Shown: one piece after another, positions 1-35,603 of the stretch
How positions within the stretch are numbered: position 1 is the stretch's first letter
Layout of the letters: each line of letters opens with the position of its first letter
Virus record (IMG/VR): IMGVR_UViG_3300032156_000044
Coordinates: 1 to 35,603 of that record
Reading direction: 5' to 3' (one strand)
From: a virus
Length of the DNA stretch: 35,603 nt
The notes under the pieces: generated by a model
Database searches by the model: none
What the model was told of the DNA's origin: nothing
Seen by the model: the letters and a program-made list of their open reading frames with translations, nothing else
Program-made: the position numbers and the translations under genes

Positions 1-1
1 T

Positions 2-814
2 TCTGGAACATCTGGAACTTCAGGATTAAATGGTAGTTCAGGTACAAGTGGAATATCTGGTTCTTCTGGAACTTCAGGAACATCTGGAACTTCTGGAATT
101 TCTGGTAGTTCAGGATCATCTGGAACATCAGGAACATCTGGTATTTCTGGATCTTCAGGTTCTTCTGGAACATCTGGAATTTCAGGATCATCTGGAACAT
201 CAGGAACATCTGGTATTTCTGGATCTTCAGGTTCTTCTGGAACATCTGGAATTTCAGGATCATCTGGAACATCAGGAACGTCTGGTATTTCTGGATCTTC
301 AGGCTCTTCTGGAACATCTGGAACATCAGGAACTTCAGGAACGAGAGGTACATCTGGAACATCAGGAACATCTGGTATTTCTGGATCTTCTGGAACATCT
401 GGTACATCTGGAACATCAGGAACATCTGGATCTTCAGGATATGCGGGCACTGTTGATCCGTTATTATATTATAGTGGAACAACATTATATACTCCGGATA
501 TTCAGATATCCAGCGGATTTACGGCGCAAGGAAATCAAAATGTTAAATATACATTTACAACAACAGATTTAATATTGGATCATACTCATTATTTTGTTGA
601 GGTGAGCGGTTCAACAGGAACAATAACAATAACATTACCAACATGTGTTGGAAAAACTGGACGAACATATATCGTCAAAAATACTGGAACTGGAATGGTT
701 GTAATTCAGCCAAATGGCGCTGAAAAAATTGATGGAATTGCTCCAAGATATTTGAATGTTCAATATATCAGCTCGACATATATAAGTAATAATATTCAGT
801 GGTTAATTAATTAA
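2..814 (+). CDS. GTSG-repeat tail fibre, C-terminal part (5' end cut by window edge)
   Basis: The frame is open from base 2, so this is the end of a gene that begins outside the window start; it very likely continues the gene that begins at 34310 if the map is circular (combined length about 615 aa). Bases 2 to about 440 encode Gly-Thr-Ser-Gly / Gly-Ile-Ser-Gly / Gly-Ser-Ser-Gly units, a collagen-like or elastic fibre shaft. From GYAGTVDPLL onward (about base 440) it becomes a non-repetitive beta-rich domain. That domain contains GTITITLP, TYIVKNTGTG and VVIQPNGAEKIDG, a pattern common in C-terminal domains of phage tail appendages. Role: probable receptor-binding fibre. An internal TTG at 575 could be mistaken for a start but lies mid-domain. 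Stop is 3 bases before the next ATG. Confidence 0.8.
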   Translation, partial: SGTSGTSGLNGSSGTSGISGSSGTSGTSGTSGISGSSGSSGTSGTSGISGSSGSSGTSGISGSSGTSGTSGISGSSGSSGTSGISGSSGTSGTSGISGSSGSSGTSGTSGTSGTRGTSGTSGTSGISGSSGTSGTSGTSGTSGSSGYAGTVDPLLYYSGTTLYTPDIQISSGFTAQGNQNVKYTFTTTDLILDHTHYFVEVSGSTGTITITLPTCVGKTGRTYIVKNTGTGMVVIQPNGAEKIDGIAPRYLNVQYISSTYISNNIQWLIN

Positions 815-10097: not shown

Positions 10098-10635
10098 GAG
10101 AAAAGGAAAAAGAAAAAAAGAATATATCTATTCGAAAACCAGAAATGGAAAAGACTTCAACCTTAAACCATATAACAATATGAAAATACGTATTGATATT
10201 CCAAATGTGGATAGATATTATTCAATTCAAAGCACGATGACTTGTTGGATAACCATTCAACCTGATGTACAACAAAAAGAACTGGACAACTATTTATTCT
10301 TGTTGAGAAAAAGAATAAGAAATAAAATAAGAGAATGGCAACAAGAATATTTCAGACAGGAAAGCATTGTTATCATTGATACGGCAGATCTTCCAATAAC
10401 AAGAAGAACTCAATGCCAATATTTGACAATCGAAATAACACATTTCATCATGGATAAAATGATATATAATAAAAATGAAATTCAGAATTTATTATGGCCA
10501 TTTTTAAAAGAAATAATTGATGTACATTTATGCATAGATGATGTGTTTACGATCATTAGAAATAAAAAGATGGAAGCCCGGAAAAATATAATTGCCAGGA
10601 ATAGGAATGAACGAAGAGAAAACGAAAGAATTTGA
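10039..10635 (+). CDS. Hypothetical basic protein
   Basis: 198 aa from 10039 (59-base overlap with the upstream gene); the ATG at 10063 (MIKKEIL) is an alternative with a 35-base overlap. The N-terminus is strongly basic (KRKGKRKKEYIYSKTRNGKD). The middle IRIDIPNVDRYYSIQST, then a long helix LDNYLFLLRKRIRNKIREWQ, then strands QCQYLTIEITHFI suggest an alpha/beta fold. No family is recognised. Its position between a DNA-binding protein and a sigma factor gives no clear role. Confidence 0.55.
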   Translation: MKSKREEYMIKKEILLDSDKRKGKRKKEYIYSKTRNGKDFNLKPYNNMKIRIDIPNVDRYYSIQSTMTCWITIQPDVQQKELDNYLFLLRKRIRNKIREWQQEYFRQESIVIIDTADLPITRRTQCQYLTIEITHFIMDKMIYNKNEIQNLLWPFLKEIIDVHLCIDDVFTIIRNKKMEARKNIIARNRNERRENERI

Positions 10636-11215
10636 CGAATTTTTTAAAGAGAATTATAAATATTTAAATGAATTTAGTAAATCAATCAATCCAAAGAACG
10701 ACTATAAGAGTCTGGTTCACGACGTTTATTTACGTACTCGTACACGAATCAACGAACACGGCTATGATGGACATGACTATCTCAACTTTACCAGAGTGGC
10801 CCTGATGAATTTATTTAAGTCAAATTACCGAAGTGAAAAAAAGAAGACAATGATAAACATCGAAAACGAAGACTACTACCAAACAATAGAACAAATACTA
10901 TTGCAAAAGGAAGAACAGAATGAACAGGAGAATGACAGACAGAATCTCAATGTGTACCTGACAACAATGGTCTATGATTATATCGATCACTATTATAATC
11001 AAAAAGAAGTATTCATATTCCGAACTTATTATCTGTTGAAACATAAACACCTCAATTATAAACAACTGGCGGAAGCCACAGGATATAGCATAACTTCGGT
11101 GAGCAATATCATAAAGAAAATGAAAAAAGATCTAAGACAAAACCTAAAGAGTTATATATTAAATGGACAAAGAATTAATACAACAAGTGGAACGACTGCT
11201 GAAGACAGGAATTAG
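10607..11215 (+). CDS. Phage ECF-like RNA polymerase sigma factor
   Basis: 202 aa from the ATG at 10607; the TTG at 10592 is a weaker start. Residues about 8-80 resemble sigma region 2: KNDYKSLVHDVYLRTRTRIN, DYLNFTRVALMNLFKSNYRS and a basic EKKK (the usual '-10 binding and melting' helix region). A charged Gln/Glu linker (90-112) follows. Residues about 115-180 resemble region 4: EVFIFRTYYLLKHKHLNYKQLAEATGYS with an HTH, SVSNIIKKMKKDLRQNL being the recognition part. This two-domain size and order is that of ECF sigma factors. It would redirect host RNA polymerase, probably to phage late promoters; the GTTATAT elements are the obvious candidates. Confidence 0.7.
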   Translation: MNEEKTKEFDEFFKENYKYLNEFSKSINPKNDYKSLVHDVYLRTRTRINEHGYDGHDYLNFTRVALMNLFKSNYRSEKKKTMINIENEDYYQTIEQILLQKEEQNEQENDRQNLNVYLTTMVYDYIDHYYNQKEVFIFRTYYLLKHKHLNYKQLAEATGYSITSVSNIIKKMKKDLRQNLKSYILNGQRINTTSGTTAEDRN

Positions 11216-12319: not shown

Positions 12320-12731
12320 TACATCAATCCTCAGTAAATCACAACGAGATCAAATGATCGATGAACTTATTATAATGCTGTATAAATGTACAAAGCGTTC
12401 AGAAATGGAAGCAAAAATTATTGAATATGGCTATTCAAAAGGCACGATAAAAGATATTATGGCTGAAGTCCAACGAAAAGCAGCTAAAAAATTCACCGAT
12501 GAGGATATCGATATTGCCAAACAACAGATAAAAGAACTCAGCGAAACTATAATGAGCGATATTGATGAGTTCTCAATGGCAAGAATTAAAGCAGCAGAAC
12601 TACTGGGCAAATTGATGAAAGCTTTTAATATCGATGTTGCTATACAAAATAATGTTGTTAACAATCTAAATCTAAGTGAATTAACAATTGATCAAATTGA
12701 GAAATTATTAAATGCAAGCGACGACCATTAA
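12246..12731 (+). CDS. Terminase small subunit (putative)
   Basis: 161 aa. TerS recognises phage DNA and loads TerL. The N-terminal half has a helical DNA-binding region (DELIIMLYKCTKRSEMEAKI, GYSKGTIKDIMAEVQRKAAK). The C-terminal part shows the pattern typical of Terminase_2-like proteins: EFSMARIKAAELLGKLMKAF, then a short oligomerisation segment (NNLNLSELTIDQIEKLLNA). The overlap of 20 bases with the large-subunit gene is strong context. The start is uncertain: 12246 overlaps the upstream gene by 74 bases; the next ATG is at 12354 (MIDELIIML). Confidence 0.7.
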   Translation: MKEKKEEIQQDLLLPTQKKKLPTGSTSILSKSQRDQMIDELIIMLYKCTKRSEMEAKIIEYGYSKGTIKDIMAEVQRKAAKKFTDEDIDIAKQQIKELSETIMSDIDEFSMARIKAAELLGKLMKAFNIDVAIQNNVVNNLNLSELTIDQIEKLLNASDDH

Positions 12732-14184
12732 GGAGCCAGAGTCTTTTTTGGACAAAATCTCGCCCGCGCAGAAATTATTTTTAAGGAAACAACTCGAAGC
12801 GGAGCTTTGTAAACGCTCTCTATATGAGTTCTTTAAATATGCGACCAAAATATTAGAGCCATCGACATCCTGGGATTACAACTGGCACTTCGAATATGTC
12901 TGCGACATCCTTCAGGCGGAATTTGAGCGGATCCAGCGTGGGGACCCGAAGGCCCGAGATATAATTCTCTCATTACCATTCCGATGTGGTAAGAGTATAT
13001 TGGTGTCCACTATATTCCCCGCGTGGGTATTGATTAAGGACCCCAGTATGGCTATAATTAATGTATCTGCGACACAGGACCTAGCCACGAAATTCAGTCA
13101 TAAAGCGAAGATATTAATAGACTCAATCTGGTATCAGGAACATTTTGGTGATATATTCAAACTCCGCCAGGATTCCAAGGCGAAGTCCAATTTCCTGACT
13201 GATAAAGGTGGATCGATCACCGCGTTCGGGATCGGATCCACTATAATCGGAAGCGGCGGGCGGATGATTCTCGTTGATGATCCAAATAGTCCAGGCACAA
13301 CAAGTCAATCCGCAATGACCGAAGTTATCAATACTTATCTCGATATTATCTATTCCAGACTTAATAACCCAATTGTAGACCTTCGTTTGGTGATGCAACA
13401 AAGGATCAATGTAAATGATCTTACTGGGTACCTATTAAGAACTCAACCTGACAAATATCAACATATATGCATTCCCGCTATATTGTCCAGCGATCTGGAA
13501 CCCGCGGAATTATCTGAAAAATATATAGATGGCTTATTTTGGAGTAATCGTTTCACACAGAAAGTCTTGGACGATTTTAGCATGACATTGCGTCCGCAGG
13601 CGTTCGCAAGTCAATTGATGATGAGGCCATCAGTTATTGAAGGAGACCTTATCAAAAGAGAGTGGTTCAAGTATATAAAACTCTCGGATGCAATGGCAAT
13701 GAACATTGTTTGGAATCTTGTTATAGATACCGCATACACAAGTCAATCCGCAAATGATCCGAGCGCGTTGATGGTCTGTGGTGTAAAGAATAACCTGTTA
13801 TATATCAGGCAAGTCAGGCAAAGATGGTTACAATTCTACGAACTCCTGGAAGAGATAAAAGAGTTGCAGAAGATCTATATGATAAAGAATATTTTTATAG
13901 AAAGTAAGGCATCTGGTATAAGCATCCAACAAGAACTCAAACGCCAGACTAATTTCAATGTGTTACCATTACAACCAATTGGAGATAAGACTGCAAGAGT
14001 TATATCAATACAACCACAATTACAGAGCGGCAGAGTTGTTCTTGTGCAGGACGATTGGAATGACGGATTCTTGAATGAATGCGCGAGCTTTCCTAATGGT
14101 CGCGATGATATGGTTGATGATCTTTGTTATGCGGTACAGGAATTTGTTAATAAAAGCACAGGAATAATATTTAAAGCGAGATGA
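12712..14184 (+). CDS. Terminase large subunit
   Basis: 490 aa, usual length. TerL is the ATP-driven packaging motor with a headful or site-specific nuclease. ATPase: Walker A LPFRCGKS (88-95; the usual Gly before Cys position is Arg, so it is a variant loop), Walker B MILVDDP (185-191), coupling motif near MQQRINVNDLTG (228-239). Nuclease (RNase H-like): LVIDTAYT (D339), IFIESKASG (E397), GRDDMVDDL (D465-D470). The N-terminal coding part, about 12735-13330, is clearly richer in G/C and in codons such as CGG, GGG and GCG than the rest and than its neighbours. Followed by a 58-base gap. Confidence 0.9.
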   Translation: MQATTIKEPESFLDKISPAQKLFLRKQLEAELCKRSLYEFFKYATKILEPSTSWDYNWHFEYVCDILQAEFERIQRGDPKARDIILSLPFRCGKSILVSTIFPAWVLIKDPSMAIINVSATQDLATKFSHKAKILIDSIWYQEHFGDIFKLRQDSKAKSNFLTDKGGSITAFGIGSTIIGSGGRMILVDDPNSPGTTSQSAMTEVINTYLDIIYSRLNNPIVDLRLVMQQRINVNDLTGYLLRTQPDKYQHICIPAILSSDLEPAELSEKYIDGLFWSNRFTQKVLDDFSMTLRPQAFASQLMMRPSVIEGDLIKREWFKYIKLSDAMAMNIVWNLVIDTAYTSQSANDPSALMVCGVKNNLLYIRQVRQRWLQFYELLEEIKELQKIYMIKNIFIESKASGISIQQELKRQTNFNVLPLQPIGDKTARVISIQPQLQSGRVVLVQDDWNDGFLNECASFPNGRDDMVDDLCYAVQEFVNKSTGIIFKAR

Positions 14185-14242: not shown

Positions 14243-15037
14243 ATGAAAGAAATATTATTTAATGAAAAGAAATACCAGGCGCCAGAATCCTGGCCCGAAG
14301 TTACATTGAGAATGGTCATCAGGACATCTCAACTGGATGCATTAATTGAGGATGCCCCGATTATCTCCATTATCGCAGGATATTGTGATATACCAACCAA
14401 TGAATTGAAGTTATCAAAGGTCAATGAGATGCAGGAGATCTTAACCACATTGGAATTCATATATGAACCATATAAGCCAACTCCCGGCAATTTCTTTATT
14501 TTAAATGGAATAACTTATGCCTGTGAAGAAGATATTCTTGACCAGACATTTGAGACCTGGGTAAGTACCCAGACCATTCTTTATAATTATCGTGAGGACC
14601 CGGTGGCAGGATTACCGAGGATGATTGCCACGTTATGCAAGAAGGAAGGAGAGACATTGGATGACATAAACCTCGATAAGAGGACAGAGTTGTTCCTGGA
14701 TCTTCCTATAACCATTGCAAAGGACATTGAAAGTTTTTTTTTAAACAGTTTGATCGCGTTAAGGACAATTACCCAGTTATATTCCAGCATTCCAGATCTG
14801 GAAAAGTTAGTCCTGCACAAGTTCAACGAATTAAGCAATATGATGAAAGCACAGCAGGAGCGACATGGTTTATCTTTGCTTATGAAATGTCAGATTGGTC
14901 TTTACCGAATTTACTTGGAACATATAAGAAAACTCTTGGTGAAGTCCTTCAATTCGCAACTTTCAAAAGGCTCAAAGAAGACTTGGATGCGGATCTTGAA
15001 AGGATTGCTTATGAGGATGCAAAGAAAAAATAAATAA
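14243..15037 (+). CDS. Tail assembly chaperone, zero-frame product (gpG-like)
   Basis: 264 aa if translated without frameshift. Residues 1-168 have the layout of Bacteroidota-phage tail assembly chaperones: ILFNEKKYQAPESWPEVTLR, a helical middle, FILNGITYACEEDILDQTFE and ELFLDLPITIAKDIESFFLN. These proteins hold the tape measure during tail polymerisation. At codons 167-168 the heptamer T-TTA-AAC is in slippery phase. Beyond it the zero frame stays open but its last 60 residues look unnatural (QERHGLSLLMKCQIGLYRIY then a poly-basic tail), whereas the -1 frame encodes a better protein. So the long zero-frame tail may be of no value or only made in part. Expected position for a chaperone is just upstream of the tape measure; here it follows terminase. 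Confidence 0.7.
   Translation: MKEILFNEKKYQAPESWPEVTLRMVIRTSQLDALIEDAPIISIIAGYCDIPTNELKLSKVNEMQEILTTLEFIYEPYKPTPGNFFILNGITYACEEDILDQTFETWVSTQTILYNYREDPVAGLPRMIATLCKKEGETLDDINLDKRTELFLDLPITIAKDIESFFLNSLIALRTITQLYSSIPDLEKLVLHKFNELSNMMKAQQERHGLSLLMKCQIGLYRIYLEHIRKLLVKSFNSQLSKGSKKTWMRILKGLLMRMQRKNK
14731..15033 (+). CDS. -1 frame extension of tail assembly chaperone (gpT-like)
   Basis: This frame opens just after a TGA at 14728-14730 and has no early ATG, so it needs a shift from the upstream frame. A slip on TTTAAAC (14740-14746) gives a 263-aa fusion: 168 zero-frame residues plus 95 beginning QFDRVKDNYPVIFQHSR. The tail GATWFIFAYEMSDWSLPNLL, TLGEVLQFATFKRLKEDLD and ERIAYEDAKKK is well formed and typical for the C-terminal part of tail chaperone fusions. 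Both frames end within 4 bases (15033 and 15037). The nine-T run also leaves open a sequencing indel, in which case the gene is simply one continuous frame. Confidence 0.65.
   Translation, partial: KFFFKQFDRVKDNYPVIFQHSRSGKVSPAQVQRIKQYDESTAGATWFIFAYEMSDWSLPNLLGTYKKTLGEVLQFATFKRLKEDLDADLERIAYEDAKKK
14740..14746 (+). promoter_or_regulatory. TTTAAAC slippery heptamer for -1 frameshift
   Basis: Zero-frame codons are ..TTT TTA AAC.., giving X-XXY-YYZ in correct phase after a run of nine T (14734-14742). It lies 10 bases after the stop that opens the -1 frame. A short palindrome CCAGATCTGG follows about 45 bases downstream, rather far for a classic stimulator. Confidence 0.6.
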
Positions 15038-16433: not shown

Positions 16434-16871
16434 ATGACAATTCAAAATCTGGTTGATGTTTGTAAGGACATAACCTTACATAAATTACAATTTAAATCCT
16501 TTTATATTGGTAATACCTGGGATATGTCAGCTGGTAAAGCTGATATCTATCCATGTTTATGGCTTGAAATGCCAGTTTTAGTAGATTATCAGACAATTAA
16601 TAAGATCAATAAGCAATTTACATTTTCTCTTGATCTTATAATATTACCAAAATTGGATGATACCACGGATGAAATTAATATGATTTCCCACATGGAAGAA
16701 TATGCGGATGAATTTCTTTATTATTTAAAACAGAATCCGGATTTTATCTTAATGGATTTTCCGACTGGATTAACGATCAAGTCGATTAATGCCGATAATG
16801 CCTGTGGGATCAGACTTGATATTAAAGTAAAAACTGGTAGAGTATGTCCGCCATTAGATTTAATAACATAA
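16434..16871 (+). CDS. Neck / tail-completion protein (putative)
   Basis: 145 aa. Pattern: VCKDITLHKLQFKSFYIGN, then WDMSAGKADIYPCLWLEMPV, a strand FTFSLDLIILPKLDDTTDE, a helix EEYADEFLYYLKQ, and FPTGLTIKSINADNACGIR. This alpha/beta layout, with conserved 'SFyiGntWDm' and 'INADNACGIRLDI', is one I associate with a single-copy gene in Bacteroidota phages next to an HK97 gp10-like gene, as here. Small proteins in this place form the tail terminator or neck ring. Homology not tested. Confidence 0.6.
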   Translation: MTIQNLVDVCKDITLHKLQFKSFYIGNTWDMSAGKADIYPCLWLEMPVLVDYQTINKINKQFTFSLDLIILPKLDDTTDEINMISHMEEYADEFLYYLKQNPDFILMDFPTGLTIKSINADNACGIRLDIKVKTGRVCPPLDLIT

Positions 16872-16876
16872 AAAAT

Positions 16877-17335
16877 ATGCCTGGAGTAATTAAAATAAAT
16901 GTTACTGATGAATTAATCAAGGAAATTACCGCTGGTGTTAAAATAATAATGGAAGCCTATAAACTTGGCGGTAGTGATTTGATCAATAGTGTTGAATGGC
17001 AATATAAGCAGAATATATTTGTTTTGATTGCCAATGATTATTTCCAATGGATTAATTTAGGACGCAGGCCAAAAGCCCGAAAAGTTCCGGTTGAAGCATT
17101 AATTAAGTGGATAAAGAAGAAAGGAATAATACCAAGGCCAGGTCAAAGTGTGAATTCTCTGGCATTTGCAATGCAAAATTCAATATATAAAGTAGGAATA
17201 AAAGCTCGTAAATTCATTGATCCGATAATCGGGCAAACATTAGATATATTAAGTGAAGAACTGGCGGTAAGTTTAAGTATTCAAATAGCTGATGCAATCG
17301 CCGAGGATATGACATTCACATTAGGAAAAATTTAA
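16877..17335 (+). CDS. HK97 gp10-like neck protein (putative)
   Basis: 152 aa from the ATG at 16877 (MPGVIKINV), 5 bases after the previous stop; an upstream ATG at 16844 would overlap that gene by 28 bases. Features of gp10-type head-tail joining proteins: NSVEWQYKQNIFVLIANDYF, QWINLGRRPKARKVPVEAL and IKWIKKKGI, then NSLAFAMQNSIYKVGIKARK. The 'GRRPxARKVPxEALxxWIxxK' block is the best marker. It would sit between the connector and tail tube. The C-terminus is a helix (LSEELAVSLSIQIADAIAED). Confidence 0.7.
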   Translation: MPGVIKINVTDELIKEITAGVKIIMEAYKLGGSDLINSVEWQYKQNIFVLIANDYFQWINLGRRPKARKVPVEALIKWIKKKGIIPRPGQSVNSLAFAMQNSIYKVGIKARKFIDPIIGQTLDILSEELAVSLSIQIADAIAEDMTFTLGKI

Positions 17336-21870: not shown

Positions 21871-24849
21871 ATGGCATCACGTACAGCTCAGGTAATTATA
21901 CAAGTCGACGATAAATCATTAGTTGAACTCAATGCGGAGATCAAAACGCTTGAGAATTCTGTCAAAAATTTAAAAATTGGAACGCAAGAATGGATTACTC
22001 AGAATAATAAACTTGGCGTTCTTAAAACAAGATTCAGAGATGCAACTGATGAAGCTAAAAGATTGCAAGGAACAATTCAGAAAGTAACCGGAAGTGATCA
22101 ATTGAGATCTATTGCCAAATTAGGAGCGGGAATGGTTGGAGCTTTTCAAACAGCCAGTAGTGCTCTTGCTTTGGTCGGAGTAAATTCAAAATCATTTGAA
22201 CAGGTAACTCAAAAAGCCGTATTGCTTATGGCTACAATGAGTGGATTAAATCAATTAGCCGAGACATTCAGTTCAACGAATTTAAAAGGTTTAAAAAGTA
22301 TTGCTGCAGGATTCACTGGATTGGTAACAACTATAAAAGGATTTTCAACAGCCACAAAAGCCGCTTTGGTATCAACAGGAATTGGAGTGCTAGTTGCTGG
22401 TCTTGGAATGGTAATTGCTAACTGGAATAAAATATCATCATTTTTTGCTGGAAAACAAGAAAAAACTGGATTACAAGAAGCAACAAAAGTAAGAGAAGAG
22501 ATTATTAAATCGCTTGAAGATGAAAATAAAGCTTTTGAAGAACAAGAAAGAATTGTTAAGGAAATAAATGAATATGGAGCTAAAGGTAGAGGCGGTTTAT
22601 TAGAGGATGCGAGCACAGCAGATGCCATTGAAAAAGCAAATTTTGCACTAAGGCAACGTGGCAAATTGTTGATGGAGCAAAGAAGATTACAGGATCTTGA
22701 CAAGAAAACGAATGTAAATGAACTCTTAAAAAAGGCTGATGAAGCTAAAGCAAATCTTGATGTAGCAAAACAAAGACTTGCAGAAATTGAATCTAGCGCC
22801 AATAAAAGTGATTTAAAAACAGTTCAAGCTGTCGTTGAATTAAGAAAAAAACAATTTAATGAAGCCATTTTGAATTATAATAAACAGGTAGAAATTAATA
22901 ATGTACTGTTTATTCAACATCAAAACATCGAAAAGCAATTAAAATTGAATGAAATGGCTAACGATAAACGAGATCAATATATTAGTGATAATAAGGAAAT
23001 TATCAAGCAACAAGAAGAGAATTCAAAACAACTTCAAAGAGATTTGACGATATTAAATTCTGAAGTGGATACTGTAAATCAAATTTATCAAGCAAGAAAG
23101 AAACTCCTGGAAATTGAACAAAAACAACTTGAAGATCTTCCTATAAGGAAAACAGCTGAAGATGATAGAATTTTTGCTATTATCACAGAATTAAAAGCTC
23201 TCAAAAATCAGAATGATTTATATAATAATACAGTTAAAAAAGCTAATGAAAAATATAAACAAGATTTATTGGATTTAGAAATACAGAAAAAAATTAATAT
23301 TGAACTTGCCGATGCAGAATTAAAATATGTTCAAATTAATGAAGATAATAAAAAACGAGGCGATGAACTTCAACATATATCAGATATTCTTAATAATGAA
23401 ATAACATCAATTGAAGACCAACAGAAAAAATTTGAAGAATTACTGGCTTTTGATAGAAAAATTAATGATACCAGAAAGATTACTACTGAAGATATTGTAC
23501 AAAATTTAAAATCTGAACTTGGATTTTATATTGCCATTCAAGATGCAACAAGAGAAAAACTTGAGAATGAAAAACTGATTCTTGAAAATCAACATAAAAT
23601 AAATGATGCTAAAATTCAGGAAAAAGAAGATGCAATTGCAATTCTTGGTGAACAATATAAAATAAATGAAGCGGAAATTGAGAGAGCCAAGAAACAATTA
23701 TCTGGAGTTGGAAAAGATCCATATCTTTCAAGAGCTGAAAAACAACAGAAGATATTAGAATTACAAGGCGAGATAAATAAACTTGAACTTGAAAATAAAG
23801 GAATTATAACGTCAATTGCTGTTGCTAATAATGAAATATCAGATGCCACAAATGAAAATTTAAAAGCATCAACGCAAATTGCTGCTGTTGATATTGATAT
23901 TAATAAGACAATATCAGATACAACTGAAAAAACAATTCAGACAACAGAAGAGATCGAAAAGCAAGTTAAATTATATAAAAAATTACAAAACTTTCTTGGA
24001 AATTATGCTGAAGAAATAGATGCGATTTTAAGAGGCTTATTACAATCAATGGAATTAATTGCAACAACATTTGAAGCTAATGCTACCAGGCATCAAGATG
24101 AAATTGACAGATTAAATGTTCAATATGACGAAATGAATACCAAAGAGCAGGATCGTCAGGATAGGATTCTTGCTTATGAAGAAGAACTCAAAGATGCCAA
24201 TGGAGATCGTTATGATGAATTATTGAGATTGATTGATCAGGAAAAAGCTGCCAAGGATGTGAATTTTGTAAGCGAAATTGATCAGAAAAACAAACTTGCA
24301 ACACTTGAGCATAAAAAATTACTTGATGAAAATAAAGCTGCAAAATGGAGGAAAGCTCAATCAATAGTTGAAGCTATTATCTTAGGTTCAATAGCTTTTA
24401 TTAAAGCATTACCAAGACTCGTTCTTGCGATTGCCACAGGAATACTGGTGGCGGCACAAGTTGCCACAATTGCTGCTCAGAAAATTCCAGATGTTCCTCC
24501 ACAGGAAAAATTTAAGAAAGGTGGATTTACAGGAATTGGTGATGAGGATGAAGTAGCTGGAATAACGCATAAAGGAGAATATATCGTTCCAGCCAAAATT
24601 CTTAAATCCCCATCATCTCAGCATCATATTGCCGCTCTCGAAAAACAAAGAATAAGAGGATATGCTGAAGGCGGATTGGTATTGCCATCAAATATTTCTT
24701 CACCATCTGGTTTTGAATATGATAAACTTGTTTCTGCTTTGAGTGAAGCTATTTCCAAATTGCCAAATCCGCAAGTTGGGCTTATTAATATATCAGCCGG
24801 ATTAAGAGATGTGGAATTGACGAAGCAATCAGCTGGAATTTCAAGATAA
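21871..24849 (+). CDS. Tape measure protein
   Basis: 992 aa. Tape measure proteins set tail length and pass into the host membrane. N-terminus with VDDKSLVELNAEIKTLENSV and KLGVLKTRFRDATDEAKRLQ, then hydrophobic helices (LGAGMVGAFQTASSALALVG near 105-125; VSTGIGVLVAGLGMVIANW near 170-188), then about 600 residues of charged coiled coil. A long hydrophobic stretch near 835-870 (AIILGSIAFIKALPRLVLAI) precedes the usual C-terminal 'GGFTGIGDEDEVAGITHKGE-YIVPA' segment. About 1000 residues suggests a tail of roughly 150 nm by the usual scale. The tail assembly chaperone is not adjacent, which is unusual. Confidence 0.85.
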   Translation: MASRTAQVIIQVDDKSLVELNAEIKTLENSVKNLKIGTQEWITQNNKLGVLKTRFRDATDEAKRLQGTIQKVTGSDQLRSIAKLGAGMVGAFQTASSALALVGVNSKSFEQVTQKAVLLMATMSGLNQLAETFSSTNLKGLKSIAAGFTGLVTTIKGFSTATKAALVSTGIGVLVAGLGMVIANWNKISSFFAGKQEKTGLQEATKVREEIIKSLEDENKAFEEQERIVKEINEYGAKGRGGLLEDASTADAIEKANFALRQRGKLLMEQRRLQDLDKKTNVNELLKKADEAKANLDVAKQRLAEIESSANKSDLKTVQAVVELRKKQFNEAILNYNKQVEINNVLFIQHQNIEKQLKLNEMANDKRDQYISDNKEIIKQQEENSKQLQRDLTILNSEVDTVNQIYQARKKLLEIEQKQLEDLPIRKTAEDDRIFAIITELKALKNQNDLYNNTVKKANEKYKQDLLDLEIQKKINIELADAELKYVQINEDNKKRGDELQHISDILNNEITSIEDQQKKFEELLAFDRKINDTRKITTEDIVQNLKSELGFYIAIQDATREKLENEKLILENQHKINDAKIQEKEDAIAILGEQYKINEAEIERAKKQLSGVGKDPYLSRAEKQQKILELQGEINKLELENKGIITSIAVANNEISDATNENLKASTQIAAVDIDINKTISDTTEKTIQTTEEIEKQVKLYKKLQNFLGNYAEEIDAILRGLLQSMELIATTFEANATRHQDEIDRLNVQYDEMNTKEQDRQDRILAYEEELKDANGDRYDELLRLIDQEKAAKDVNFVSEIDQKNKLATLEHKKLLDENKAAKWRKAQSIVEAIILGSIAFIKALPRLVLAIATGILVAAQVATIAAQKIPDVPPQEKFKKGGFTGIGDEDEVAGITHKGEYIVPAKILKSPSSQHHIAALEKQRIRGYAEGGLVLPSNISSPSGFEYDKLVSALSEAISKLPNPQVGLINISAGLRDVELTKQSAGISR

Positions 24850-29504: not shown

Positions 29505-32500
29505 ATGGCAACGGATTTATTAAATAATTGTCACTTTGATCTAACCAAAATTAAGAAACTCTATATTGGTTCTAGATTATTTGTTACTGGCGCTCCAATT
29601 ACGTATCCGATTGTCTATTCTACTTTACCTGGTTCGGATGATTCCGTAATATCTTATTTAACTGCGAATATGACTACCATTACAATTGGTGGACAAATTA
29701 TCGCTATGGATGAGGTATGGAATACTGGTGAGAATATTACATTCACTGAAGAACTGGTTATTGATAATAAAAGCAAAAATTATGTCAAAACTCTGACATT
29801 TGATGTTTCTGGAATTGATCTGACTTTAGTTGACAAAACTGAACAATCGGCTTTATCAATTTATAATAATTTAGCTCCAACAAGTTGCTTGGTAATATTA
29901 ATTGATGAAAATGATAATGAATTAATAATTGGTTATGACAATCCATTAATTCTTGATACTGTTACTAATTCAATTGATATTGATAATAATGTTATGACAT
30001 TAACATATATTTCAACCAGTAAATCCAGAGCCAGAAATACGAGTTATACTTATAGTATTGATCCTACGCCATCTAATACTAGCACGCCAAGTCGTACTCC
30101 GACGCGCACACCATCATTATCAATAAGCGCAACTTTAACACCATCATTATCAATATCATCAACATTATCAATAACTCCAACAATTACGCCAACGATAACG
30201 CCATCGCTTTCAATAAGTTCAACACCACCTATAACTCCAACTGTTACGCCATCGTTATCGATATCAAGAACACCGACTCCAACTCCAAGTTTTGTTCCTG
30301 CAAGCATAACGCCAACTCTAACTATTACTCCAACAATAACACCGAGTACCACACCTCTAGTTGGAACACCGTTCATAACCGAATGGACTGTTTCTGGAGA
30401 TACAACAGATAGAACAATAACATTACCTTTATATAGTGGTACGACTGGATTAACATTTAATGCATATGTTGATTGGGGAGATGGTTCTGGATTATCAAAT
30501 ATATTATCATTTAATGATTCAAATCGAATTCATACTTATTCATCAAATGGTTCTTATCAAGTAAAAATTTATGGAGAGGCTCCAGGTTGGTTTATGCCTT
30601 TTATGGCAGTTGAAAACTATAAACTCACTAGTATCATAAATTGGGGCGATGCATCAGGATTTGGAGGATTTGAATATTTAGAATCTGGATTCGCTGATAC
30701 AAACATTAAATCAACTGGATCTGGTAAAATTCTAGCTAAACCAGGACTTGTAAGTTTAAATTCTATTTTCAATGCCTGTTATCTTCTTACTGGATGCACA
30801 AGCGGATTATTTGATAATTGTATAGAAGTAGAAGATTTTTCATTTGCATTTGTTTCTTGTCTTACTTTTAATTCTATTCCTGCAGATTTATTTAAATTTA
30901 ATATAAATGCTAAATCTTTTATCGCCACATTTGCTACTTGTTTATCACTTGATACTATTCCTGTTGATATTTTTAAACACAATATATTAGCTACTGATAT
31001 GAATGCTGTTTTTCAACAAACTAACATATCATCTATTCCATCAGGTATTTTTGATTATAATCCTCTTGTTACTAAATTTACACAAGCATTTGGTGGTTGT
31101 ACACAATTATCATCAGTGCCATCTGGAATTTTTGCACAAAATCTTTTAGTTACGAATTTTAGGCGCGTTTTTGAATTTTGTAATAATCTGCAACTTAATA
31201 ATCAAATATTTTATCTTTCAAGTGGAGATACTGCGACAAGATTCTTTAACCAGTCTGTTGATTTTACATATGCATTTCAAAGAACATCATTTACTGGAAT
31301 TCAAGGAATTGCGCCTGATTTATGGAATTGTGATTTTGGAACTGGAACAACAATAAGTACAAATGCTTTTGCTGGTGCTGGAAATAATTTAACATCAATT
31401 TCCAATTATTGTGATATTCCTGCTGCTTGGGGAGCAATTGCTTGTTCTCCATCACCAACGCCAACAGTAACTATTACTTCATCGAGGACCCCAACAATAA
31501 CGCCATCATTATCAATATCGGCGACACCATCATTAACACCAACCAGAACATCGTCATTATCTATTTCTGCTACGCCATCAATGACGCTTTCAATAACGCC
31601 AACTATAACATCATCATTGTCTATTTCTGCTACGCCATCCTTATCAATATCATCGTCTATGACGCCATCGATGACGCCATCATTATCAATATCAAAGACG
31701 CCATCAATAACATCAACTATTACGCCATCTTTATCAATATCATCATCTATGACGCCATCAATGACGCCATCATTATCTATATCTAAAACACCGTCAATAA
31801 CTCCATCATTAACTCCAACTCCATCTACAAGTCCAGCTCCAAGAGGATTTATAACAGAATGGAAAGTTAGTGGAGACGCCGCAGCAAGAACAATTGCATT
31901 ACCATTTACTGATAATGGAGTTTATAATGCAATAGTTAATTGGGGTGATGGTTCAATATCTGGAATCACATCTTATAATGACTCAAGAAGAACACATACA
32001 TACGCTTCAAATGGTACATATCAAGTAAGTATTTCTGGTGAAACTCCAGGTTGGAGTTTCCGTTATGGCTCAAGTTCTGATGCTTCGAAAGTAAATAATA
32101 TTGTATATTGGGGAGACGCCTCAATGTTTGGTGGATTCTCATATTTAGAATATGCATTTGAAGCTTGTATAACTATGAAATCATTAGGTACTGGAAAAAT
32201 ACTTGCTAAATCTGATTTAACAAGTTTAAAAGGTGCGTTAAGAAATCTATCAGTTTTAACTGGAATAACATCAAATTTATTTGACAATTGTATTAATGTT
32301 ACAGATGCGTCATTACTATTTGAATTTAATTTCGAGACAAGTTCGGCATCGACAGTTACAATACCAAATAATTTATTTGATTATATGACTGGCGTAACAA
32401 CATTTAACGAAGCATTTGATTATAACCATAATAGAATTAAAACTATACCAACTGGTTTATTTAAATATAATACTTTATGTATTGGTTTTAATAAAACATT

Positions 32501-34309: not shown

Positions 34310-35603
34310 ATGCCTAATTTAATATTAAATACGGATGTTGCGAAAGTGGTTATTAAGCCAGATCCAATATCAATTATATATACAGGAGTAACAAGTGGAA
34401 CTTCTGGAACGTCAGGAACATCTGGATCTGGTACTTCAGGAACATCTGGAACATCAGGTATAAATGGATCAAGCGGAACTTCTGGAATAAAAGGTTCAAG
34501 TGGAACATCTGGAACTTCTGGAACATCTGGTACTTCAGGAACATCTGGATTTGGTTCGTCTGGAACATCTGGTACATCTGGGCATGATGGTACATTTTTC
34601 GGCTCATCTGGCACATCTGGAACTTCTGGCATAAATGGATCTTCTGGAACTTCAGGAATAAACGGATCATCTGGAACTTCTGGAATAAAAGGCTCAAGCG
34701 GTACATCTGGAACATCTGGAACTTCAGGAACAAAAGGTACATCCGGAACTTCAGGAACATCTGGAATATCTGGAATTTCAGGAACATCTGGAACATCTGG
34801 TATAAATGGTTCATCTGGAACTTCTGGCATAAATGGCTCAAGTGGAACTTCAGGAATAAACGGATCAAATGGAACGTCTGGTACTTCGGGAACATCCGGA
34901 ACATCTGGATTTGGTTCATCTGGAACTTCTGGAACATCTGGACATGATGGTACATTTTTTGGATCATCTGGCACATCTGGAACTTCTGGCATAAATGGTT
35001 CATCAGGAACATCAGGCATAAATGGATCTTCAGGTTCTTCTGGTACTTCAGGAATAAATGGATCTTCTGGAACTTCAGGAATTTCTGGTAGTTCTGGGAC
35101 ATCTGGAATAAGCGGAAGTTCTGGAACATCTGGTATTTCTGGATCTTCTGGAACTTCTGGAATAGATGGTTCTTCTGGAACATCTGGAACTTCAGGAATA
35201 AATGGATCAAATGGAACATCTGGAACTTCTGGATTGGATGGTAGTTCAGGTACAAGCGGAACATCTGGTGTTTCCGGATCATCTGGAACTTCTGGAATTT
35301 CTGGTAGTTCAGGATCATCTGGAACTTCTGGTACATCTGGTATTTCTGGAACATCTGGAACTTCAGGATTAAATGGTAGTTCAGGTACAAGTGGAATATC
35401 TGGTTCTTCTGGAACTTCAGGAACATCTGGAACTTCTGGAATTTCTGGTAGTTCAGGATCATCTGGAACTTCTGGTACATCTGGTATTTCTGGATCTTCA
35501 GGTTCTTCTGGAACATCTGGAATTTCAGGATCATCTGGAACATCAGGAACATCTGGTATTTCTGGATCTTCAGGTTCTTCTGGAACATCTGGAATTTCAG
35601 GAT
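34310..35603 (+). CDS. GTSG-repeat tail fibre, N-terminal part (3' end cut by window edge)
   Basis: The frame starts at the ATG at 34310 (MPNLILNTDVAKVVIKPDPI) and is open to the end of the window. After a 27-residue head that likely binds the adaptor, the protein is Gly-Thr-Ser-Gly, Gly-Ile-Asn-Gly, Gly-Ser-Ser-Gly units almost without interruption, broken only by inserts such as GFGSSGTSGTSGHDGTFF, which occurs twice (near 34555 and 34915). The shaft is probably an extended trimeric fibre. The final 260 bases match the first 260 of the window in the same frame, so the gene most likely continues at base 2 and ends at 814 (about 615 aa). Repeat collapse in assembly may have changed the true length. 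Confidence 0.8.
   Translation, partial: MPNLILNTDVAKVVIKPDPISIIYTGVTSGTSGTSGTSGSGTSGTSGTSGINGSSGTSGIKGSSGTSGTSGTSGTSGTSGFGSSGTSGTSGHDGTFFGSSGTSGTSGINGSSGTSGINGSSGTSGIKGSSGTSGTSGTSGTKGTSGTSGTSGISGISGTSGTSGINGSSGTSGINGSSGTSGINGSNGTSGTSGTSGTSGFGSSGTSGTSGHDGTFFGSSGTSGTSGINGSSGTSGINGSSGSSGTSGINGSSGTSGISGSSGTSGISGSSGTSGISGSSGTSGIDGSSGTSGTSGINGSNGTSGTSGLDGSSGTSGTSGVSGSSGTSGISGSSGSSGTSGTSGISGTSGTSGLNGSSGTSGISGSSGTSGTSGTSGISGSSGSSGTSGTSGISGSSGSSGTSGISGSSGTSGTSGISGSSGSSGTSGISG
35344..35603 (+). repeat. Terminal repeat of window start (260 bp, 3 mismatches)
   Basis: Bases 35344-35603 align with 1-260 without gaps; differences are A/T at 127, 130 and 133 (35470, 35473, 35476). The frame is conserved across the join. 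Either the assembly ended in overlap of a circular or circularly permuted genome, or the two ends are different units of the same fibre repeat. Confidence 0.85.

Follow-up and report, generated by a model that had tools for sequence, protein, structure and literature searches.

A conserved run of nine T and two overlapping C-terminal reading frames in a candidate phage tail assembly chaperone gene

Here, we describe a phage gene that probably yields two proteins through slippage on a run of nine T (T9), with a common N-terminal domain followed by either of two long C-terminal tails, both of which appear to be maintained by selection. The gene was identified in a 35,603-base virus record of IMG/VR (IMGVR_UViG_3300032156_000044, analyzed over its full length and hereafter called the window), the ends of which overlap and which contains genes for a terminase, a portal, a capsid-like virion protein, and a tape measure protein. 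RNA polymerase, rather than the ribosome, is the somewhat better candidate for making the slip. A broader proposition, to which we give slightly less than even weight, is that phages of a widespread clade, with relatives among the phages of Bacteroidota, produce two chaperone forms of near-equal length by RNA polymerase slippage on T9, need both C-termini, encode them in the same stretch of DNA, and set their ratio at transcription. The sequence itself and the conservation of T9 and of both frames are demonstrated directly, and from these and the other evidence given below we infer the occurrence and level of the slip, the identity of the protein as a chaperone, and the roles of the tails.

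All features considered here are on the plus strand of the window. The gene for the terminase large subunit (12712..14184; phrog_38, E = 6e-83) is followed directly by a 0-frame ORF of 264 aa (14243..15037), separated by about 7 kb from the tape measure gene (21871..24849; phrog_1506 and phrog_24). This ORF, for which homologues were found, comprises an N-terminal domain of about 163 aa (14243..14733), the T9 run (14734..14742), which comes after codon 163 and is itself followed by AAAC, and an unshifted tail of 97 codons (14743..15037). Overlapping this tail is a −1 frame ORF (14731..15033), preceded by a −1 stop at 14728-14730 and terminated at 15031-15033, which would provide the tail of a shifted product of 263 aa and in which ATG, GTG, and TTG are absent from the opening stop to 20 codons beyond the run. 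The 0-frame stop is at 15035-15037, and the ATG of the next ORF is at 15037; both stops thus adjoin that start, which is possibly a sufficient reason by itself for the near coincidence of the two ends. As an observation on the record itself, its last 100 bases recur at 161-260, within a collagen-like GTSG repeat gene (window 1-260 and 35344-35603), so that the contig is probably circular or was assembled through the repeat.

Searches of IMG/VR, GenBank phages, and GTDB contigs with the fused protein as a direct query produced no matches, and homologues were reached via the capsid-like gene, a small conserved downstream gene (16844..17335), and alignments of two to eight sequences. The first relative, G001, found via the capsid-like gene, is 55% identical to the window protein in the N-terminal part and 50% identical in the −1 tail, and its 0-frame ORF is equally long. 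Later additions were G002, G003, L039, L042, L043, L045, L063, L064, and L065, along with the more distant L048, L047, and L049. Fold comparison led to gene 38 (23136-23827) of the cultured Nonlabens phage P12024S (JQ823122), which is also located directly after the terminase gene and for which profile comparisons back the homology of both parts (probability 94 and 91). In this gene, T9 is found at 23578 and is accompanied by a −1 ORF of 84 codons; the frameshift is unannotated, and the locus is annotated as separate hypothetical proteins. The gene 38 counterpart in phage P12024L is nearly identical. The T9 site with a −1 tail is retained in the ten clear IMG/VR homologues (G001, G002, G003, L039, L042, L043, L045, L063, L064, and L065) and in P12024S. 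The unshifted tail extends over 62-100 codons across the 11 T9 homologues from IMG/VR, the window included, and P12024S lacks such a long tail, with only about 25 codons. A tree of the N-terminal domain was too weak to decide between gain and loss of the long 0-frame tail.

In 13 of 14 sequences, the −1 ORF opens 3-69 nt 5′ of the run, mostly with no start codon, and where a start codon is missing it could be expressed only via a change of frame; translation of the −1 ORF as an independent downstream gene was considered and ruled out because most of these ORFs have no start codon. The initial annotation of this locus had described a tail chaperone with a −1 frameshift at a T-TTA-AAC heptamer and two alternative C-termini. 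On recheck of the sequence, the position (14740..14746) and slippery phase of the heptamer and the product lengths of 264 and 263 aa were correct, and the central observation, two long, nearly equal C-termini joined by a −1 transition, was borne out by its conservation in homologues. An indel introduced by sequencing or assembly is a trivial explanation for such an arrangement, given that homopolymers are generally error-prone, but T9 and the −1 relation recur in eleven other records, which were assembled independently and include that of a cultured phage, and on the strength of this conservation we reject the explanation as having a negligible probability. Phase variation, whereby the length of the run would change in the DNA and each single genome would make one form, would fit the hypermutability that A/T runs of nine can display (PMC1088944) and the T10 run of L048; it is nevertheless highly improbable, because the −1 tail is in frame in no homologue and even L048, with its T10, needs a −1 shift.

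The length of the run is strikingly uniform: it is exactly nine T in all 12 clear cases (the window, the ten IMG/VR homologues, and P12024S), in codon phases 0, 1, and 2. It is present even in genomes of about 46-50% GC, and in L063 and L065 it is intact although TTT accounts for only 21-22% of the Phe codons. No second sense-strand run of at least nine T was detected within ORFs of at least 120 aa in these records. The heptamer TTTAAAC that the initial annotation took for the slippery element is confined to the window, the nine T being followed by other bases in the ten homologues and in P12024S. Judged from these sequences, what is conserved is T9 and not the heptamer; the original reading thus stands for the −1 transition with two long tails and falls for the motif. 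Among the more distant relatives, L048 has T10, L047 (65% GC) has T6 (as U_UUU_UUG), and L049 has A11. L049 (4619-5427), on a contig of a Candidatus Dependentiae MAG, is a remote relative in which the A11 run occupies the corresponding place and is accompanied by a −1 ORF.

Whether the long unshifted tail is more than a fortuitously open frame was assessed by holding one protein fixed, redrawing its codons from the codon usage of the genome, and scoring the other frame for stops. In the window, with the −1 protein fixed, the 0 frame was open in 0.3% of the synonymous recodings (2.8% with permuted codons), and none of 4000 recodings that kept the 0-frame protein left the −1 frame open (0.25% with permuted codons). 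Over the shared length, eight homologues, among them the window, individually gave P values between 0.0005 and 0.017 for openness of the 0 frame; with codons permuted within the gene, the values were mostly weaker, reaching 0.32 among the eight. The values for L063, L064, L065, and L047 were 0.05, 0.20, 0.24, and 0.57, respectively, so that openness alone is non-significant for the last three, which counts against our preferred explanation. The +1 frame contains 3-11 stops over the overlap stretch.

In a shadow-frame similarity test on 55 pairs drawn from 11 divergent sequences, the 0 frames were more alike than conservation of the −1 protein forces them to be (z = 12.4), and the −1 frames exceeded what the 0-frame protein imposes (z = 20.3); with the pairs restricted to those of at most 40% identity, the values were 12.5 and 21.4, respectively. 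The N-terminal part, used as a control, gave z values of 0.5 and 1.5, and 0.3 for the 0 frame at no more than 40% identity; with control values this low, synonymous sites look saturated, and relatedness does not account for the signal. As a second control, the downstream gene gave 2.6 and −1.1, so that small z values of about 2-3 cannot be relied on, compared with 12 and 20 in the overlap. For the +1 frame in the overlap, the z of about 6 is what constraint on both other frames would be expected to produce. The 0-frame signal spans the whole overlap and is maximal in its middle. In two of the pairs, differences at the third positions of −1 codons decrease from the N-terminal part to the overlap, from 0.63 to 0.43 between the window and G001 and from 0.58 to 0.40 between G003 and L039.

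The excess similarity of each frame, set against the low values of the N-terminal control, indicates that the long unshifted tail is a selected coding region rather than an accident; with both tails selected, about 95 codons would serve two reading frames. The initial annotation had contrasted a natural-looking −1 tail with a different, basic 0-frame tail. This contrast is incomplete. Both tails are under purifying selection, and the 0-frame tails carry a positive charge of +7 to +21, and recoding nulls yield about equal charge, so that the overlap alone produces a basic tail. For the same reason, basic charge was discarded as a sign of function. That only the −1 tail matters, with the 0-frame ORF open by chance and its product idle, is an already disfavored reading with very little probability left. 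It can draw on the better conservation of the −1 frame (z of 20 vs 12), the short 0-frame tail of P12024S, which makes the long tail not universal, and the non-significant openness in L064, L065, and L047; these points are outweighed by the low openness P values of the eight homologues and by the 0-frame similarity that persists at no more than 40% identity, where the control is flat.

Under the proposed mechanism, the two proteins would have the N-terminal domain of about 163 residues in common but not their C-termini: the 0-frame tail would result from unslipped reading and the −1 tail from a one-base slip on T9. Messages with U9 would encode the 0-frame protein and those with U10 the −1 protein, whereas translation of U8 messages would end at the run in the window and three other sequences, and 2 to 19 codons further on elsewhere. 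Slippage by RNA polymerase is favored because the length of the run is kept while its phase varies, because the run is intact even where the genome avoids TTT, because the downstream sequence showed no RNA structure, and because published work points to the same length: in many bacterial genomes, A or T runs prone to slippage are selected against from a length of nine nucleotides onward (PMC1088944), and runs of nine A/T are documented sites of transcriptional slippage (PMC5009743). Pseudoknot-free folds of the 70 nt downstream of the run in 14 sequences had z values between −1.1 and 1.2.

The main competitor, less probable than polymerase slippage and still a substantial possibility, is programmed −1 ribosomal frameshifting by tandem tRNA slippage on U_UUU_UUU, or in the window on U_UUA_AAC, with both tails used. 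Every T9 contains U_UUU_UUU in phase, whatever the phase of the run, and the window has its in-phase T_TTA_AAC heptamer in addition; known tail chaperones rely on ribosomal frameshifting (PMC5009743); and in L047, where U_UUU_UUG lies on a run too short for the usual slippage by RNA polymerase, ribosomal frameshifting is the likely mode. However, seven in-phase T's would be enough for the ribosome, yet nine are retained in 12 of 12 sequences and in all phases, and the pseudoknot-free downstream folds mentioned above show no stimulatory structure.

The protein is likely a tail assembly chaperone, as suggested by a weak fold match, a weak match to an annotated protein, and the apparent mode of expression. 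The N-terminal domain was modeled by AlphaFold2 with a pLDDT of about 90, and residues 83-171 of the model match the HK97 tail chaperone structure 2OB9 weakly (Z = 4.5 over 78 residues; Foldseek E = 1.9). The 0-frame tail was predicted to form long helices at lower confidence, and the −1 tail is helical in the model (pLDDT 79), with no match among solved structures and none at E ≤ 0.001 in BFVD. A phage protein annotated as a tail assembly chaperone was matched weakly in BFVD (E = 1.4e-3), and the matches at E ≤ 0.001 are uncharacterized or unnamed phage proteins. Searches of Pfam, PHROGs, NCBIfam, and PDB sequences returned no credible family for the protein. Tail chaperone genes usually sit just before the tape measure gene, an arrangement that is common but not universal. 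The present gene instead follows the terminase gene, about 7 kb away; it shares with tail chaperones a −1 extension of a common N-terminal domain conserved in relatives, and its unshifted product stops shortly beyond the site only in P12024S, not in the 11 T9 homologues from IMG/VR. The unusual location and the lack of a family match would suit a protein that is truly recoded but serves another step, such as head-tail joining. We consider this unlikely, given that the phage structure matched by the N-terminal part is the HK97 chaperone 2OB9, that the BFVD match is annotated as a chaperone, and that no alternative chaperone candidate is seen directly before the tape measure gene, the two genes immediately 5′ of it in the window being large (775 and 682 aa).

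The closest known system is the G/GT pair of phage lambda (Xu, Hendrix and Duda; reviewed in PMC5009743), which likewise consists of a single gene with a common N-terminal domain and a startless −1 extension and probably performs the same job. By this analogy, binding of the tape measure protein would fall to the shared domain and recruitment of tail tube subunits to the −1 tail, and the 0-frame tail would equip the unshifted form for a separate function. Lambda differs in that G ends soon after the site, whereas in the window type a conserved tail extends the unshifted form by up to 100 codons, in that its site is a short heptamer rather than a T9 run, and in that its gene precedes the tape measure gene rather than adjoining the terminase gene. 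P12024S gene 38, with a homologous N-terminal domain and −1 tail and T9 at the equal place, has the canonical arrangement with a short 0-frame tail, in contrast to the long one of the window type. Runs of about nine A/T within a coding region that give rise to differing C-termini are also known from Thermus thermophilus dnaX (A9), Shigella mxiE and spa13, and IS elements (PMC5009743, PMC1088944). In those genes, one product usually stops shortly after the run, whereas here both run on, over up to about 95 overlapping codons; and slippage has been demonstrated for those systems, whereas here it is predicted from sequence. A long dual-frame overlap accessed by polymerase slippage is found in Potyvirus P3N-PIPO (PMC5009743), which, however, involves an RNA virus polymerase, a G-A6 site, and a 0 frame that is the polyprotein, and is not related by descent. 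Our literature search, which covered few subscription papers, found no report of T9 slippage in tail chaperones.

Three other phage loci came to notice during these comparisons. Cellulophaga phage phi17:1 (NC_021795; 29740-30452) carries an A10 run at 30138 that, with a −1 frame, links gp56 to gp57 immediately 5′ of the tape measure gene. This chaperone-like frameshift, likewise on a homopolymer, is missing from the annotation. Croceibacter phage P2559Y (NC_023614; 10647-11390) has A10 in the middle of the ORF before the tape measure gene; slippage at this point would yield a shortened protein, similar to the case of Thermus dnaX. On the minus strand of Flavobacterium phage 6H (KC959568; about 10352-10927), a 191-aa gene, which by its length is the probable match of R9VW65, is followed by a −1 ORF of about 105 codons. 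This ORF starts only 9 nt 5′ of the stop of the 0 frame, and no homopolymer is evident.

Ordinary ORF-based annotation would lose one C-terminus in every relative of this gene, and in P12024S the shift has indeed been missed; as a cultured phage, P12024S offers a bench system for the T9 site. If the interpretation is correct, the gene would add to phage biology a candidate for transcriptional slippage that is strongly conserved, and an example of about 95 codons on which selection acts in both frames even between very divergent viruses. Should the 0-frame tail prove to be used, the unshifted chaperone would be a second specialized protein rather than a mere shorter default, and the G/GT model, in which a small number of long forms accompany many short ones, would need revision.
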